NCBI RefSeq assembly: GCF_020405205.1 | Contig: NZ_CP084469.1 | Coordinates: 620,001 to 684,000 of the forward strand | From: Natrinema salinisoli | GTDB lineage: Archaea > Halobacteriota > Halobacteria > Halobacteriales > Natrialbaceae | Length of the DNA: 64,000 nt | Reading direction: 5' to 3' | Shown here: positions 1 to 10,052 of the stretch, one piece after another | How positions within the stretch are numbered: position 1 is the first letter of the stretch | How the letters are laid out: each line of letters opens with the position of its first letter | The notes under the pieces: model-generated | What the model saw: only the letters and a program-made list of their open reading frames with translations | What the model was told of the DNA's origin: nothing | The model's database searches: none | Program-made: the position numbers and the translations under genes

Positions 1-291
1 ACTGTGTTAACAGGTATGGAGAGGTTTCTACCCGGTCTGACTGCTTCTTTCTACAATTCTTCCCTTTACTACAACCAGTGTTTAACTGTGAATGATTTGA
101 CGAGAGTATCGCATGCCTGCAAGCATACTGCTTGCTGGTCAGACAGACATGGCCAGTGCAGGGAGACGGAAAACGGTGGGGCGTATCAGCGGCGATCAGA
201 CACAGAAAAACGAACAGGGTCCCGTTTGCTCAGCGTCAGTTGACGCGGCTGATGGGATATCGAGTCGAGACTCACAGTCGGGGGCCGACCG
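1..291. other. Upstream region of the multicopper oxidase gene
   Basis: No convincing gene lies here; short reading frames have no recognisable sequence. It should contain the promoter of the large oxidase gene that follows, but I cannot single out one TATA box. A small inverted repeat (GCAAGC at 119-124 and GCTTGC at 130-135, 5-nt loop) is the only clear structural element. Confidence 0.5.
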
Positions 292-3200
292 ATGACTGAT
301 GGCGAAGTACCCGACGATACTGGAAACGACGCTACCGTCGACATAGACGATATTGGTGGGTTCGATTCGTCTACTCGACGGACGTTTCTCAAGGGTGCCG
401 GCGCGGCGACGATCGCGAATTCGATGGTGGGTAACAGCTGGGCGTTCTCCGGAAACGGGAACAACAGGGGACAAAACGGTGTTCGCAAGTTCACCGTCCA
501 CGCGATCCAGGTCGACATCGTCTACAATCGATTCGGGTTGCATCAGCCAAACGGCGCGATGTACGTGCTCGAGGAGAATCTCGAGGCTGCGAGGAAGGCC
601 TCGGGTGTCGCCCCCGGTGACGGGTTCGATCTGATATCGGATGAGAGTGGCGGCGACGACGTCGACACATCGGTCATCGAGCCGCTGACGATCCGGGCGA
701 ACAAGGGCGAAACCGTCGAAATCGAGTTCGTCAATCATCTCGACCAGCCGGCCTCGATGCACCAGACCGGGCTCCCGCAGGATCCGAAGGATTCTGACGG
801 GATGAACGTCGGGTACAACCCGAGTACGGTCGCTCAGCCCGGCGAAACGGTCACGTATCGGTGGGAGGCAACCCACCTTGGTGGGCACTTCTTCTACGAC
901 GGCGCCCACCAGGGATTCAACAGCCCCGACGAGGAACCTGCAACGGTCAATCACCTCTCCCGTGGGCTGTTCGGGACGCTGGTCGTCGAGCCAGAAGGCG
1001 CGACGTGGACCGATCCGGTCACCGGCGGCCCCCTCCGGAGCGGGACGAAGGCCGACATCCACGACCCGAACCACATGGGAACGAGCTACCGTGAGTTCGT
1101 CCCGCACTACCACACACCGTCGGGGGTGTACCTCCCGAACGGCACCGAGAAGAAATGGCCGAAAGATAGTACCAAGCAAACGACACACGGTATCAACTAC
1201 CGGGCTGACGGGACTGGTCCCCGCGTCAACCAGACCGAGGCCCAGCTCCAGCCCCACTCCCTCAAACGACTGTTCTACTCCTCGTGGATCAACGGTGATC
1301 CCGGTGGCGGTGACAACGTTTTCAACGCGTACAAGGGTGACTCCATCAAATTCGTGCCCGTCGGCGCCTCGCTCGAGGAGAACCACGTTCACCACCTCCA
1401 CAACAGCCGGTGGAAGACCGTCCCCGGTCGAACCGATTCGGACACGATCGACGCCCAGACGCTCGGTCTCGGTACGTCGTACCCCGAGTATCTGATCGCG
1501 GCGCACGGTTCGAACAGGGGAACCGCGGTTCACGATGCGGAGCAAAGCGTCCGCCAGAGCATGACGTACAGGGAGGCCTTCGACAGGGGCGGTGCCGGCT
1601 ACGTCCACGGCGGTGCCGGGGACATTCTGTTCCACTGCCACCTGTTCCCCCACTACGCGGAGGGGATGTGGGCGTTTATGCGCGTCCACGACAAGGAACG
1701 CGCCGACCTCCAGCCGCTCCCGAACACGAACATCGTTACCAACCCGTCGTCGGTCGACCTGCCGCTCAATGACGGGATCCTCGGATCGGGAACGAATATT
1801 CCCGGGTTCCCCGATTACGTCCCCGGGACGAAAGGCGAGTTCCCGCCCAAGCCCGTGGCGGGGTCGTCCGGGACGACGAACCCGCGCGCTCCGACCGCGG
1901 CCGAACGGAAGGCCGGCTTTACGACGGACGTCGACGGTGCACCGTACCAGGACCCGGTCGTGGACGAGAACGCACCGGAGCGGAACCACACGATCCACGT
2001 CCTTCAGGGGAAGCACCTCGGGGACATCGTGTACAACGACGCCGGAGATTACGATCCCGAGAGCCTGGTGTACGTCCACGAGGACGACGTCCAGGCCGCG
2101 AAGAACGGCGACCTGAACCCCGAACCGCTGTTCATCCGCGCGAACGTCGGCGAGGCGGTGAACATGACCCTCGTGAACGAGTCGGAGTTCCCGATATCGA
2201 TCCATCCCCACTTCGTCGGGTTCGACAATCAGGGCACCGACTCGACCCCGTCTATCGGGTACCAGACCGAGCAAAGCGTCGAACCGGGGGAGGAACGGAC
2301 CTACCGCTGGTACGCCGACGAGGAAGGCCCGATCTACTTCCACGACCACGCGGTCGGTGCAGAAGAGGCCCAGCACGGCACGTTTGCCGGTCTCATCGTC
2401 GAACCCGAAGGCTCTCGACACCTGGACCCCTACAGCGGGGAGCCGATCGAAAGCGGTGCCCAGGCCATCATCGAGGTTCCCGACGGGACCGACTTCCGCG
2501 AGTTCGGCCTCCACTACAACGACTTCGTCCCGCTGCGCGACAGAGAAACGGGTGAATACGTCAACCAGCAGCGCGAGCACAACCTGAATCTCGGGACGAC
2601 CGCCATCAACAACCGGAACGCGCCGTACTACCATCGAGACGACGACGGCGCAGCGTACGTCCACAGTTCGGCGGTCAACGGGGACCCGGCGACCCCACTG
2701 CTCGAGGCCTACTCGAACGACCCGGTTCGCATTCGGCTGTTTCAGGGTGCGTTCGAGGACCAGCACAACTTCCAGCTCCACGGTCGCCAGATCGAGCCCG
2801 AAGGCCTCGACGAACAGGACACGGTGTCCCAGCTCATCAGCCCCTCGGAAGCGTTCACGTTCATGATCGACCCTTACGACTCGCCGGACACCCCTACCTT
2901 CGACCGCATGCCGAACCCGTCGGGGCTTCCGATCCAGGACTACATGTACGGGTCGGGCATTACCGACGACCGGTTCACCGGCATGTGGGGCATCCACCGC
3001 GTGTTTGATGCGGCGGCACCGCACCTCGAGCCGCTCCCCGACCGCGGGACGCCGGCGGGCAAGGTCACCGAGAACCAACTCGAGCAGATGGGCCATTCGG
3101 CACCGTTCGTCGGCATCGACCGGCTGAAGAACCTGGGTCAGCAAGCCCGGCTGCTGTACGAAGCCGGCGACGACCGAACCCTCACGCCGGATACCGCCGA

Positions 3201-5424
3201 CCGGAAGAATCCGAACGTCGGTCAGAAGCCGCCGAAGCCGCCGTCACCGGGCCAACCCTGCGGAGACGACGCGCCCGATCGCCAGTACGACGTTGTTGCC
3301 CAGCAGGTGGACATCCACTTCAACGACCACGGTGACCACGACCCGCACGGTATCGTCTTCTCGCTCGACGAGTACGCCGACGAAGTGGCAGACGGGACCC
3401 GGCACCCCGATCCGCTTACGATTCGTGCCAACCAGGGAGATTGCATCGAAGTGCGCCTGCAAAACGAACTGCCGGCCGATCTGAACGACTCTCACGTGGA
3501 CCCGCCGATGCGGGTCGAGGAGACGCTGGACACCGAGTGGGAGCCGTCGAATCGCGTTTCGTTACACCCGCAGCGAATCACCTACGGCCCCAACGGCTCG
3601 GACGGCGCGACGGTTGGGTTCAATTACGACCAGACTGTCGCACCGGGTGAGACGATAACCTACCGGTGGTACGCCGACGATCTGTACGACAACATGGTGC
3701 TCACCGACGAGGCCGACGTCCGCGGGCACCGTCACCACGGTGCGTACGGCAACCTCGTCATCGAACCGTCCGATGCCGTCTGGCTCGATTCCTCGACCGG
3801 CGAAGCGTTACCGGAGGGCGTCGATGCGATCGTCAAGCGACCAGGACGGCAATCGGTCCGCGAGTACACGCTGTCGCTGAGCGATGGTCGATACGTCCTC
3901 AACAGCGACGATCCGGACTCGTGTGTGGTCCCCGGCGGTCCGGAGGACGGCAACGCGGACTGTAACACGATCGGCGGGTTCGAAGACAGCGGCCACGGCG
4001 CGATCAACAACCGTTCCGAACCGTTCGTCCGTCGATTCCAGACCGACCCGGCACAGCACAAGGTCTTCGACTCGGACGTCCACGGTGATCCGGCGACGCC
4101 GGTGTACCGAGCACTCACCGGTGATCCGGTGAAGTTCCTGGTCCACCAGCCGGCCGACAAGGCCCGTGGCACGTCGTTCCACCTGTCGGGTCACCAGTGG
4201 CAGCGCTATCGCGGCATCCCCGAATCGCCAGTTATCGGCGTTGAGGACCGCCTCAGCCCGGGTAAGGGCGTCAGGCTGGGGCTGACCAGCGACGCTGGCG
4301 GTCACCAGCAAGCGACCGGTGACTACATCTTCCAGGAGACCAAGCAGCGCCGACGCCTCGAGTCGGGTCTCTGGGGAATTTTCCGGGTGCGGAACACGCC
4401 CAGCGACTTCCCGAATCCGGTACAGCCGCTTCCCGATCTGGACAACCCCGTCGACCCGAAGCAGCGTCCGAACTGGAACGTGTTCCACGAAGACATCACG
4501 CGGAACGGGATCGACGACTTGGTGATCGGCATTCCTGAGAGCGACGTCGGTGGGAAAAACGCCGGCGCAGTGTACATCTTCGAAGACCATTCGGGGCCCG
4601 TCGACGAACTGTCCAATGCCGACTTGACGTTGCTTGGGAGCAGGCCCGGACAAGGTCTCGGTACGACCGTCGATAGACGGGGCAACGGAAACGCGCCGGT
4701 ACTCGCCATCGGAACGGCATCCGGCAAAGAGATCACTGTCCCTGCGGGAACCCCGGCGGTCGACGCAATCGCAAACCCGGCCGACACGCCCGAGCGTCGC
4801 TTCCTGAAAAATACCACCAAGAACACCCTCAAAGCTGTCCACGACGCCGAAAAGGCCCAGAACGGTTACGGAAACGGTCGTGGTAACGGGAACGGCGGTG
4901 GTAACGGAAACGGCGGGAATGGCAATGGAAACGATGGCGGCGGAAACGGTCGTGGTAACGGAAACGACGGTGGAAACGGCCGTGGCAACGGTAACGGTCG
5001 TGGTAACGGAAACGACGGTGGAAACGGCCGTGGCAACGGTAACGGTCGTGGTAACGGAAACGACGGTGGAAACGGCCGTGGCAACGGTAACGGCCGTGGC
5101 AATGGAAACAGCGGTGGAAACGGCCGTGGCAACGGTAACGGCCGTGGCAATGGAAACAGCGGTGGAAACGGCCGTGGCAACGGAAATGGCCGTGGTAACA
5201 GTAGGCGTTCAGATCTTGACGATCACGTTCACAGCGGTCCGTCCACATCACGGTCTGAGGGGACGGTCGGTCGGACGCAGTTCCTCAGCTGTACCGATTG
5301 CGGACAGAAAAGCGCTCCAGCCGGCGATGCGAGCATGTGGAGCGTAACGGACGCAGCCGACGAGGGAGAATCGGGCTTCGAGTGCGATTCCTGTGGTTCC
5401 CTCCTGGAGGATACCGAGCTATGA
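292..5424 (+). CDS. Very large Tat-exported multicopper-oxidase-like protein with FG-GAP segment, Gly/Asn repeat linker and zinc ribbon
   Basis: A 1,710-residue protein. A twin-arginine signal (RRTFLK, residues 29-34) precedes a hydrophobic stretch, so export folded across the membrane is expected. Three tandem cupredoxin-pair repeats follow (about 60-490, 555-970 and 1045-1390). Copper motifs are split between repeats: HVHHLH (365-370) and HCHLFPHYAEGM (448-459) in repeat 1, HPH (638-640) and HDH (684-686) in repeat 2; repeat 3 keeps only scattered His. Residues near 1404-1431 (NGIDDLVIGIPE, then NAGAVYIFE) look like one FG-GAP/integrin-type repeat. Residues about 1524-1640 are Gly/Asn-rich, and C1667, C1670, C1698, C1701 form a zinc-ribbon-like tail. 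Family members oxidise phenols or metals with O2; a substrate (for example Mn or Cu) is only inference. The ATG at 292 is the first that gives a normal Tat leader. Confidence 0.9.
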   Translation: MTDGEVPDDTGNDATVDIDDIGGFDSSTRRTFLKGAGAATIANSMVGNSWAFSGNGNNRGQNGVRKFTVHAIQVDIVYNRFGLHQPNGAMYVLEENLEAARKASGVAPGDGFDLISDESGGDDVDTSVIEPLTIRANKGETVEIEFVNHLDQPASMHQTGLPQDPKDSDGMNVGYNPSTVAQPGETVTYRWEATHLGGHFFYDGAHQGFNSPDEEPATVNHLSRGLFGTLVVEPEGATWTDPVTGGPLRSGTKADIHDPNHMGTSYREFVPHYHTPSGVYLPNGTEKKWPKDSTKQTTHGINYRADGTGPRVNQTEAQLQPHSLKRLFYSSWINGDPGGGDNVFNAYKGDSIKFVPVGASLEENHVHHLHNSRWKTVPGRTDSDTIDAQTLGLGTSYPEYLIAAHGSNRGTAVHDAEQSVRQSMTYREAFDRGGAGYVHGGAGDILFHCHLFPHYAEGMWAFMRVHDKERADLQPLPNTNIVTNPSSVDLPLNDGILGSGTNIPGFPDYVPGTKGEFPPKPVAGSSGTTNPRAPTAAERKAGFTTDVDGAPYQDPVVDENAPERNHTIHVLQGKHLGDIVYNDAGDYDPESLVYVHEDDVQAAKNGDLNPEPLFIRANVGEAVNMTLVNESEFPISIHPHFVGFDNQGTDSTPSIGYQTEQSVEPGEERTYRWYADEEGPIYFHDHAVGAEEAQHGTFAGLIVEPEGSRHLDPYSGEPIESGAQAIIEVPDGTDFREFGLHYNDFVPLRDRETGEYVNQQREHNLNLGTTAINNRNAPYYHRDDDGAAYVHSSAVNGDPATPLLEAYSNDPVRIRLFQGAFEDQHNFQLHGRQIEPEGLDEQDTVSQLISPSEAFTFMIDPYDSPDTPTFDRMPNPSGLPIQDYMYGSGITDDRFTGMWGIHRVFDAAAPHLEPLPDRGTPAGKVTENQLEQMGHSAPFVGIDRLKNLGQQARLLYEAGDDRTLTPDTADRKNPNVGQKPPKPPSPGQPCGDDAPDRQYDVVAQQVDIHFNDHGDHDPHGIVFSLDEYADEVADGTRHPDPLTIRANQGDCIEVRLQNELPADLNDSHVDPPMRVEETLDTEWEPSNRVSLHPQRITYGPNGSDGATVGFNYDQTVAPGETITYRWYADDLYDNMVLTDEADVRGHRHHGAYGNLVIEPSDAVWLDSSTGEALPEGVDAIVKRPGRQSVREYTLSLSDGRYVLNSDDPDSCVVPGGPEDGNADCNTIGGFEDSGHGAINNRSEPFVRRFQTDPAQHKVFDSDVHGDPATPVYRALTGDPVKFLVHQPADKARGTSFHLSGHQWQRYRGIPESPVIGVEDRLSPGKGVRLGLTSDAGGHQQATGDYIFQETKQRRRLESGLWGIFRVRNTPSDFPNPVQPLPDLDNPVDPKQRPNWNVFHEDITRNGIDDLVIGIPESDVGGKNAGAVYIFEDHSGPVDELSNADLTLLGSRPGQGLGTTVDRRGNGNAPVLAIGTASGKEITVPAGTPAVDAIANPADTPERRFLKNTTKNTLKAVHDAEKAQNGYGNGRGNGNGGGNGNGGNGNGNDGGGNGRGNGNDGGNGRGNGNGRGNGNDGGNGRGNGNGRGNGNDGGNGRGNGNGRGNGNSGGNGRGNGNGRGNGNSGGNGRGNGNGRGNSRRSDLDDHVHSGPSTSRSEGTVGRTQFLSCTDCGQKSAPAGDASMWSVTDAADEGESGFECDSCGSLLEDTEL
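4861..5205 (+). repeat. In-frame 48-bp tandem repeats encoding a Gly/Asn/Arg-rich linker
   Basis: From about 4955 the DNA repeats with a 48-bp period (16 residues, of the type GNGNDGGNGRGNGNGR) for roughly five copies, preceded by less regular Gly/Asn codons. Later copies differ mainly by a GAC to AGC change (Asp to Ser). All copies keep the reading frame. This linker joins the oxidase/FG-GAP part to the zinc ribbon. Such arrays change copy number by slippage or unequal crossing-over. Confidence 0.85.
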
Positions 5425-7136: not shown

Positions 7137-8192
7137 TTATTTTCGTTGTCCAGTTACGGTATAGATACACCCGAGGTAGGTCTCGCGGACCCGATCCCCC
7201 CAGTTGTGGGTGTAGGTATCGATCACGTCGCCGGCGACGTCGCCCCGGAGGTACTGGACGATACCCCGATCGCCAGTTCGATCCCGGAGGTGGGTGGTGA
7301 AGAAGTGTCGGAAATAGTGTGGCGTGACGTTCTCTTGCGTTCCGCCGCCGGTCCGGTACCAACCGCGCTCTCGAGCGTGTTTCTCGACGATATAGCGAAC
7401 GTCCGAGGGAGTGAGCCGCTCGCCCCACGAATCGCGAGTATCGAGAAAGAGCGGCCGCGCCGACGAGACGGCGTCCGGACGGATCGCCAGCCACTCGAGT
7501 AGTGCGCGACGAAGCTCGCCGTCCACCGGAACCACCGTGTCCCGCTTTCGCTTGTTCGATGCCGTCCGTTCTTCGCCGTTGATACCCGTGCCACGGGCCG
7601 GTTCCGAGGAGATGAAAACGGACGACGGACGCCGCTCGAGCCCGACCCGGGGCGTCCACTCGAGGTCGAGTTCCGGTATCTCGAGGTAAAGATCCCGGAG
7701 ATCGAGGTTACAGAGTTCACCGACGCGCATTCCGGTCTTCAACAGGGTGACGACGACGGCCCGCTCGAGGGGGTGTGCGATCGCCTCGACGAACGATCGC
7801 ATTTCGTCGACCGAGATATCTCGTCGGGTGGGGTTCGTGTCGATCGATTCGGACATCTCCTCCATGACGAGGGCCATCGGATTGTCGTCGAAGACGCCGA
7901 CCCGAGTCATGTAGTCGTAGAACCGGTTGAGATAAGAGGCGTAGGTGGCGATCGTGCTGGATTCGAACGCCCCGCGCAGCGAGTGGATCCAGGCCATACA
8001 CTCCCGGCGCTGGGCCGCTCCGACCGCATCGATATCGAATCGCTCGCGGAGGAACGCCTCGAACCGTCGGAGCACGCGCTCGTAGGCCTCGAGCGTCCGT
8101 TCGCTCTTGCCGTGATACCGCTGGTCGTCGAGGAAGTACGAGATCGGATCCGTCACGTCCTCGGGGGCGTCGGTCCCGGGTTCAGTCGCCAT
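7137..8192 (-). CDS. Tyrosine recombinase / XerC-D-like integrase
   Basis: A 351-residue site-specific recombinase. An N-terminal SAM-like core-binding domain (about 15-105) precedes the catalytic domain. The catalytic set is visible: R156 in TGMRVGEL, Lys near 214-216, H292-x-x-R295 in PHYFRHFF, and nucleophile Y327 in DVIDTYTH; the usual second His/Trp region reads RGDVAGD. A basic insert lies at about 205-217. The ATG at 8192 overlaps the end of the upstream DUF5805-like gene by 11 bp, so the two are probably translated together; an upstream GTG at 8201 is a less likely start. Low-coding DNA on both sides suggests a resident integrated-element relic, but XerA-like housekeeping use is possible. 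Confidence 0.9.
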   Translation of the reverse strand: MATEPGTDAPEDVTDPISYFLDDQRYHGKSERTLEAYERVLRRFEAFLRERFDIDAVGAAQRRECMAWIHSLRGAFESSTIATYASYLNRFYDYMTRVGVFDDNPMALVMEEMSESIDTNPTRRDISVDEMRSFVEAIAHPLERAVVVTLLKTGMRVGELCNLDLRDLYLEIPELDLEWTPRVGLERRPSSVFISSEPARGTGINGEERTASNKRKRDTVVPVDGELRRALLEWLAIRPDAVSSARPLFLDTRDSWGERLTPSDVRYIVEKHARERGWYRTGGGTQENVTPHYFRHFFTTHLRDRTGDRGIVQYLRGDVAGDVIDTYTHNWGDRVRETYLGCIYTVTGQRK

Positions 8193-8577
8193 CGCCACCA
8201 CCGTCGACAGTCGTGTACCCGCCGTGGCGACCGCTGTATCGAATCCGGTTGGTCGACTGGAGCTCCTCGAGTGTCTCGTCTAACTGTGACTCGATATCCT
8301 GGGAGACTGCCTCGAGGAGCTCGTCCCACGAGTACGTGTCAGTTGAGAGTAAATTGAGGACCTGTGTTTCGAGGTCGCTACCCCCGGGGTCTGGGCCGGT
8401 AGAATCGGGTTCCGCAGAGCCGGATTCGAACCCCCGTCGCCCCGCCTGCACCATCGTTCGGACGAACTCGCTCTGGCTCATGTCGAGCTCGGCGGCGTGG
8501 GACTCCCACTCGGATTTCTGGTAGGCAGGCACGTACGTTTTGACAGCTGTTCTAGATGTGTCCGCCGAATCGCTCAT
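8182..8577 (-). CDS. DUF5805-like protein paired with the integrase
   Basis: A 131-residue protein. The N-terminal half (VKTYVPAYQKSEWESHAAELDMSQSEFVRTMVQAG) resembles a ribbon-helix-helix/CopG-type segment; the C-terminal half (about 75-120) looks like a winged helix (LLSTDTYSWDELLEAV ... RIRYSGRHGGYTTV). I know such genes mainly as companions of haloarchaeal integrases, where they probably bind DNA and assist or control recombination. The ATG at 8577 was preferred over one 39 bp upstream because the extra residues are not acidic. It overlaps the integrase by 11 bp. Confidence 0.75.
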   Translation of the reverse strand: MSDSADTSRTAVKTYVPAYQKSEWESHAAELDMSQSEFVRTMVQAGRRGFESGSAEPDSTGPDPGGSDLETQVLNLLSTDTYSWDELLEAVSQDIESQLDETLEELQSTNRIRYSGRHGGYTTVDGGGDGD

Positions 8578-10052
8578 ACGCCATCCATCAGACGCGATGA
8601 TATTCAATCTACCCATTATTCGAGCTAAGTGAGTTTATCTCATATTACAGAACCCCTATTGCCAGAGTACTAGGATCAGAAATGGGGATAATAGCCATAT
8701 ACGGTGACACAGTCTCGGATGCGTATCTTCGGCTTCTAGTGATACAATTTGGGATATTATTATCGACGATTCGATCGAGCCGTTCGATTTCCTCCCTCAC
8801 TCGGAGCGTCGGGTCGTCGATTCCGGTCGATCACGGAGACGATTTGAACTCCGCATCGTGGCCCGGATTGGGCTTCCCTACGCGAGCCGAGAAGACCGGA
8901 ACCGCTGGAGCGGAAAGCGGTAGCCACCACTCACTGCGGATCGCGTTCGATCGAGACGGATATCGCTCCGTGTGCAGCAAGTGCCCTCCAGAATTGCCAT
9001 CGCGATGCTTTGAATGTCTGTCGGCTACGGATCTGAGTTCGCCACGTTTGACACGCGAATCGTTGGCTCATCCCCGCTGGGGAGCGATTTCGGCCTCGAT
9101 CGAGTCAGTAGCCGTCGCTTTTCGGAATGAAACACGCTCCGGTTCGGATCGCCAGTCCCTGCGCTCAGAGATCGGCGCTGAAGCGAAACGAACCGAGACT
9201 ACAGCTGTGACGCGATTCGGTCCGATGGTCAGCACTCAACGACGCCTGTGTCACGACCTCTCCGACAGTGATTCGGACCCACGTTTCGGGACAAGCACGC
9301 TCGTCGGCACACTGTCGTTACCTGACTCGAACCGCAGGATCGGTCTTCTCCAAGTGTCGACGCTGGGATGTCACTGGAACGAGACAGCTCTCTTCTACCG
9401 GTCGGTCGCACGACTCGGTGCCGATCGCTGCTAGTGGCGAATGACGGAGAACGGACCTGCCTGCAAGCGGTAGGAGAGTGGAACCGTTCCGACGGCCACC
9501 CCGGTCTGACGATTTCGAGGTACTCGGCAGGTCCGAGTTACGGGCCCCATACGCACCCCTATTCGACGTGCTCTTCGCCTTATACTAATTCGTCAGAAGA
9601 TCATACATCGACAGAGAGAACCCACTCAGAGAGCCATTGAGCGGGTTCAAGAGGATCGACCGCATCGTGCTATCCTACCCGTCGTGTCGCTCGTTGGTCG
9701 AAATTCGGGTGAATGAACTGACGCGGCGTCCGAAAGCGATCTAATAAATCATATATTGCTATATCGATATTGGTGCCAACCGCTACTACATCGCGTTGGC
9801 TTCGCCCACGGTTTTCCGTTTCAAACTGGGCCGCCCAAACGGCCGAATTGCCCCGGCTCGAGGCGATCTCGAGAGCGACAAGGAGACGCCCCCAGCGCCG
9901 AGGCTAAGCAAATTGAATAGACGGCCACGCGGTTCGAACTGATGGCTCTGTTCTGAAACGGGTTTCAATCTTTCCTCGAATATCCCATCTCTGGAGAGCC
10001 ACGTGATCTCCTCGTCGGTAGTTATTCCCCGTTGGTGACCATCCACACCGCT
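8578..10052. other. 1.5-kb gene-poor stretch with hairpins
   Basis: No convincing gene. A 250-codon plus-strand frame (8682-9434) is open but basic and Ser/Arg-rich, unlike haloarchaeal proteins, and matches nothing I know. AT-rich islands occur at 8630-8700 and 9740-9773. Two adjacent inverted repeats lie before the dehydrogenase gene: GGCCG/CGGCC (9829-9833, 9840-9844) and CTCGAG/CTCGAG (9857-9862, 9868-9873). This looks like decayed insertion DNA next to the integrase pair. Confidence 0.5.

Follow-up and report, generated by a model that had tools for sequence, protein, structure and literature searches.

Canonical multicopper oxidases of the laccase and CueO type carry two HxH motifs first, then HxxHxH and HCH, all within approximately 500 aa. 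An oxidase of 1710 aa encoded by the haloarchaeon Natrinema salinisoli places HxxHxH and HCH ahead of HxH motifs and spreads them over tandem repeats. Can motifs arranged in this order build a complete copper site, to which known enzymes does the protein belong, and what might it oxidize? We addressed these questions by sequence comparison for the gene, which lies in a 64,000-nucleotide stretch of contig NZ_CP084469.1 (positions 620,001 to 684,000 of the forward strand), hereafter called the window.

Gene and domain architecture

The oxidase gene is an open reading frame without an internal stop, and its translated product matches Pfam Cu-oxidase_3 and Cu-oxidase_2. A 982-aa antisense open reading frame (196-3144) was rejected as a shadow frame of GC-rich DNA; it is the sense frame that has full-length homologues. 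BLASTP comparison of the protein against itself delineated three repeats (R1/R2, E 2.4e-29; R1/R3, E 2.3e-26; R2/R3, E 1.4e-36), each of two domains and with pairwise identity of approximately 27-28%. The tandem repeats described in an earlier note on this DNA are thus real. The gene is laid out as follows.

292..5424 (+): mnxG-like gene for a six-cupredoxin multicopper oxidase, 1710 aa (open reading frame; PDB 9bxa; Pfam; Priestia MnxG alignment)
376..396 (+): candidate twin-arginine export motif RRTFLKG, residues 29-35 (sequence; weak TAT matches below cut-off)
478..1851 (+): repeat 1 (domains 1-2), residues 63-520 (self-comparison; aligns with MnxG residues 2 to about 400)
1972..3171 (+): repeat 2 (domains 3-4), residues 561-960 (self-comparison; PDB 9bxa and Priestia MnxG alignments)
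3262..4491 (+): repeat 3 (domains 5-6), residues 991-1400, without a complete copper motif (self-comparison; MnxG alignments)
4864..5199 (+): Gly/Asn/Arg-rich low-complexity linker of 48-bp tandem repeats (Tandem Repeats Finder)
5290..5394 (+): C-terminal CxxC...CxxC tail, zinc-ribbon-like (sequence; weak Pfam zinc-ribbon matches below cut-off)

The twin-arginine (Tat) motif falls within the first ~50 residues of the oxidase, which is probably Tat-exported. Because the N-terminal Pfam TAT_signal and NCBIfam TAT matches are weak and both below cut-off, export is a prediction from the motif. The three two-domain repeats would be expected to close as a ceruloplasmin-like ring. AlphaFold models of residues 62-960 and 560-1390, each from a four-row alignment, had mean pLDDT values of 34 and 39, respectively, low scores that we attribute to alignments too shallow for the purpose; the three-dimensional arrangement proposed for the copper site is based instead on homology to MnxG in PDB entry 9bxa.

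The last ~310 residues (about 1400-1710) lie outside the oxidase repeats and comprise a Gly/Asn-rich tandem repeat and the CxxC...CxxC tail. The 48-bp unit is in frame and present in 5.4 copies with 95% matches. The CxxC tail is common to the window oxidase and its homologue in Natrinema salsiterrestre (locus L009), and CxxC pairs were not seen in the last printed residues of other haloarchaeal homologues. Near the start of this region, ITRNGIDDLVIGIPESDVGGKNAGAVYIFE (window 4480-4680, residues about 1400-1465) resembles by eye one FG-GAP/integrin-type blade; the segment has no Pfam match. Approximately 0.8 kb upstream of the oxidase gene, in the same orientation, lies a gene for a 494-aa protein (locus L031, 11983-13467) that by eye is a membrane protein; it is conserved at the N. 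salsiterrestre locus and has no Pfam or NCBIfam match. Downstream of the oxidase, window positions 7137-8616 hold a tyrosine recombinase (Phage_integrase) and an overlapping DUF5805 gene.

Copper motifs and their conservation

A motif scan found the copper motifs where the earlier note had placed them, two in repeat 1 and two in repeat 2.

1384..1401 (+): HVHHLH, residues 365-370, an HxxHxH motif; H365 assigned to type 1 copper, H368 and H370 to the trinuclear cluster (roles by homology; opposite HVFHYH of MnxG)
1633..1668 (+): HCHLFPHYAEGM, residues 448-459; H448 and H450 assigned to the trinuclear cluster, C449, H454 and M459 to type 1 copper (roles by homology)
2203..2211 (+): HPH, residues 638-640; H638 and H640, candidate domain 3 ligands of the trinuclear cluster (opposite HIH of MnxG)
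2341..2349 (+): HDH, residues 684-686; H684 and H686, candidate domain 3 ligands of the trinuclear cluster (opposite HDH of MnxG)

HCH, HxxHxH and HCH-x3-H-x4-M each occur once in the protein. HxH is found seven times in residues 61-1460 versus 2.8 +/- 1.6 times in shuffles, and conservation is a stronger argument against chance motifs than this excess. In a protein alignment of 16 haloarchaeal and four bacterial rows, each of the 16 haloarchaeal rows has retained H365, H368, H370, H448, C449, H450, H454, M459, H638, H640, H684 and H686, so that a search among close homologues for loss of the motifs found none. Locus L047, putatively the Haloterrigena turkmenica copy, retains every motif. The middle residue of the first domain 3 HxH varies among the haloarchaeal rows. 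By standard multicopper-oxidase assignments, the twelve conserved residues are four type 1 ligands and eight trinuclear-cluster histidines. Because all twelve are present, one complete copper site can form between domain 2 and domain 3.

The rest of the protein is poorer in motifs. Repeat 1 had been said to lack a proper H-x-H. This holds at the ligand position, where a single His (H157) is kept in haloarchaea, and does not hold for the repeat at large, which contains one more H-x-H (HYH at 272) outside the metal-ligand position. H157 in domain 1 and H825/H830 in domain 4 are examples of surviving remnants of the other two ancestral sites, which agrees with the scheme published for an ancestral six-domain protein. 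Motif scan and alignment also revealed no complete copper set in repeat 3, as the earlier note had proposed. Its suggestion that repeat 3 is structural goes too far if read as purely so, because a DxADxRxxRHHGA(F/Y)G segment in domain 5 is conserved in the haloarchaeal rows and shared with Priestia MnxG.

Six-domain blue proteins can decay altogether; coagulation factor V is degenerate and catalytically dead. The window oxidase might be another such protein, since two of its three ancestral site positions have decayed and a relative from Pseudonocardia has lost both HCH and HDH. Against this stand an open gene and the intact twelve canonical ligands, in the window oxidase as in 16 of 16 haloarchaeal rows, and we consider a dead protein very improbable.

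Relationship to MnxG

A PDB sequence search ranked chain A of 9bxa, the MnxG subunit of the MnxEFG complex, first (E 7.5e-172), followed by two-domain laccases at E ~1e-11 or weaker. The 9bxa alignment spans query residues 64-1370 in three colinear blocks, and all four motifs pair with their equivalents in MnxG. Priestia MnxG aligned with the window oxidase in a single colinear BLASTP alignment, motif for motif, at 35% identity over 1348 columns. The earlier note had proposed alignment to an MnxG-type oxidase as a check, and both comparisons show full-length colinear homology to characterized MnxG. In these alignments the counterpart of HCHLFPHYAEGM is HCHLYPAFGIGM in 9bxa and HCHLYPHFGEGM in Priestia. 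At the position of H454 of the window oxidase, where a type 1 His is expected, the 9bxa chain carries Ala; since the Priestia sequence has His there, the deposited protein was probably engineered at this residue.

Among NCBIfam models, copper_ox_MnxG was the best match (E 2.2e-54). The window oxidase scored 184 bits against the 3100-bit cut-off of the MnxG equivalog NF041487, a shortfall that is not evidence against MnxG membership because Priestia MnxG also falls below this cut-off (353 bits), which therefore excludes Bacillus-type MnxG too. The Priestia gene used for comparison sits in a genuine mnx operon, as the products of two adjoining small plasmid genes match the MnxE and MnxF chains of 9bxa. 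On this Priestia megaterium plasmid (L037, 3614-7941), mnxE and mnxF are annotated as hypothetical and mnxG as a generic multicopper oxidase, and the three genes lie near a CopC/CopD gene.

The likeness extends to layout. MnxG of Bacillus sp. PL-12/Priestia, the Mn(II) oxidase of MnxEFG, has three two-domain repeats with the same motif order, a single type 1 site in domain 2, and a trinuclear cluster whose ligands come from domains 2 and 3. As in MnxG, HxxHxH and HCHxxxHxxxxM of the window oxidase fall in domain 2, ahead of both domain 3 HxH motifs. Vasin, Klotchenko and Puchkova (2013, PMC3600357) described MnxG-like proteins with six domains, from bacteria and also from two haloarchaea: Halorubrum lacusprofundi (Hlac_1576, 1525 aa) and Haloterrigena turkmenica (Htur_3146, 1476 aa). 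In all prokaryotic six-domain multicopper oxidases they analyzed, the haloarchaeal proteins included, a mononuclear type 1 site was assigned to domain 2 and a trinuclear site to the interface of domains 2 and 3 (PMC3600357). Their tree clustered the haloarchaeal sequences with Bacillus/Clostridium MnxG, and green-algal Fox proteins shared the domain 2/3 trinuclear layout with MnxG and the haloarchaeal proteins (PMC3600357). The order that the earlier note had regarded as unusual is therefore the normal one of the MnxG family, being colinear with MnxG and published in 2013, for salt-loving archaea as well; the window oxidase adds another member. The note's central proposal, a single complete copper set drawn from repeats 1 and 2, is supported by MnxG colinearity, by motifs in register and by the published layout (PMC3600357).

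An origin independent of MnxG, which would make this a truly new permuted three-repeat oxidase with an unprecedented mode of site assembly, would have to draw solely on a non-canonical motif order, the reverse of that in laccases and CueO-type enzymes (the core of the window oxidase, moreover, spans 1300 aa). It conflicts with a single colinear MnxG alignment holding four motifs in register and with the same layout published for MnxG, green-algal Fox and haloarchaeal proteins (PMC3600357). We rejected it on the ground of colinear homology and give it practically no credence.

Other six-domain enzymes are more distant in organization. Ceruloplasmin and hephaestin also have six cupredoxin domains, and the PDB search showed weak local similarity to domain 3, but their trinuclear cluster lies between domains 1 and 6 and they carry additional type 1 sites. 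In the window oxidase the motifs are in domains 2 and 3, and domains 1 and 6 have neither HxH nor HCH at the ligand positions. The Chlamydomonas multicopper ferroxidase Fox1 has its trinuclear cluster between domains 2 and 3, as in the window oxidase; unlike it, Fox proteins oxidize iron and may have a type 1 site in domain 4 also (PMC3600357). Htur_3146 and Hlac_1576 come from the same class of organisms and have the same published architecture, and the greater length of the window oxidase (1710 aa versus 1476 and 1525) is due at least in part to its tail. Relative to MnxG, the window oxidase has the Tat motif, the Gly/Asn-rich tandem-repeat tail with CxxC pairs and, at residue 367, His rather than Phe; searches of its genome recovered neither MnxE nor MnxF.

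Collectively, these data make it highly probable that the window oxidase is an MnxG-type six-domain multicopper oxidase in family, architecture and copper-site mechanism, its substrate being a separate matter. We infer by homology that the site is occupied by copper. Type 1 copper in domain 2 (H365, C449, H454, M459) would accept electrons singly, at the protein surface, from a metal substrate, and the Cys-His link (H448-C449-H450) would carry each electron to the trinuclear cluster where domains 2 and 3 meet. That cluster, predicted to be bound by H368, H370, H448 and H450 from domain 2 and by H638, H640, H684 and H686 from domain 3, would convert O2 to water. Its counterparts between domains 4/5 and between domains 6/1 have decayed.

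Distribution among haloarchaea

The mnxG-like gene is sporadic across haloarchaea. A 359-aa segment containing the motifs found matches at E < 1e-30 in nine of 194 sampled genomes of the class and in none of the 13 congeners listed; a search at family level gave strong matches in nine of 101 genomes (hand count). The homologue in N. salsiterrestre is 95% identical and its neighborhood is conserved. Several copies reside on large replicons recorded as plasmids. No relatives were found among viral contigs, and no gene neighbors are common to most of the 16 haloarchaeal loci. In the tree, the haloarchaeal rows all group together with full support, separate from the four bacterial rows; this bacterial sample is small and long-branched, and the tree gives no indication of the direction of transfer.

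Individual loci vary. One 1.02-Mb replicon (G076:C2) carries two divergent mnxG-like paralogues, at ~772 kb and 1.0 Mb (L042 and L043), which fall into different haloarchaeal subgroups of the tree. At another locus (L048, 6171-11047; G002:C18) the gene is split into two overlapping frames of 960 and 703 aa, and so appears to be frameshifted or mis-assembled. The Pseudonocardia plasmid pBCI1-2 (L040, 3989-7759) encodes an MnxG-like protein without HCH and with HDG for HDH, apparently a six-domain protein without a copper site.

Substrate and accessory subunits

Activity in Bacillus requires at least mnxE, mnxF and mnxG (PMC5622069). The mnxE and mnxF genes, which normally adjoin mnxG, were not found with the window gene: searches using one Priestia sequence each of MnxE and MnxF, which such small proteins or remote homologues could escape, gave no match in its genome, and the same type of search gave nothing credible beside the haloarchaeal homologues. 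An empty result of this kind says little unless a positive control succeeds, although in the neighborhood comparison these queries do recover the Priestia locus. Because MnxE and MnxF were not found, we divide our expectation about evenly between Mn(II), the best single guess, and other reductants such as Fe(II) or Cu(I).

Within the second half of that expectation, the MnxG-fold enzyme may have Fe(II) or Cu(I) as its natural substrate and work as a haloarchaeal ferroxidase or cuprous oxidase in the manner of Chlamydomonas Fox1, whose trinuclear cluster likewise sits between domains 2 and 3. Consistent with this are the two subunits not found, in the genome or beside haloarchaeal homologues, and a clade-specific change within HxxHxH, beside the type 1 site: at residue 367, every one of the 16 haloarchaeal rows has His, whereas all four bacterial rows have Phe. 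Yet MnxG is by far the closest characterized protein in sequence, and the haloarchaeal sequences grouped with Bacillus/Clostridium MnxG in the 2013 tree (PMC3600357). A substrate of this kind is possible, although we lean against it.

Haloarchaeal MnxG might, on the other hand, be a self-sufficient Mn(II) oxidase that needs neither MnxE nor MnxF, with second-shell tuning of its own (H367 and an EE-x-H conserved ahead of the type 1 His in the haloarchaeal enzyme) and its tail. We hold this to be rather unlikely and put it forward tentatively. A limited search of the open literature on haloarchaea or archaea and manganese oxidation or MnxG turned up no account of a haloarchaeal MnxG oxidizing Mn(II).

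With the trinuclear site of MnxG-type oxidases placed between domains 2 and 3, the structural puzzle is already solved, and interest now lies in the function of an MnxG apparently without MnxE and MnxF. Were the archaeal enzyme to oxidize Mn(II) alone, it would offer a simpler system for the two-electron oxidation of manganese by one protein, archaea would join the organisms that form Mn oxides, and they would gain a multicopper-oxidase route to Mn oxide in brines.
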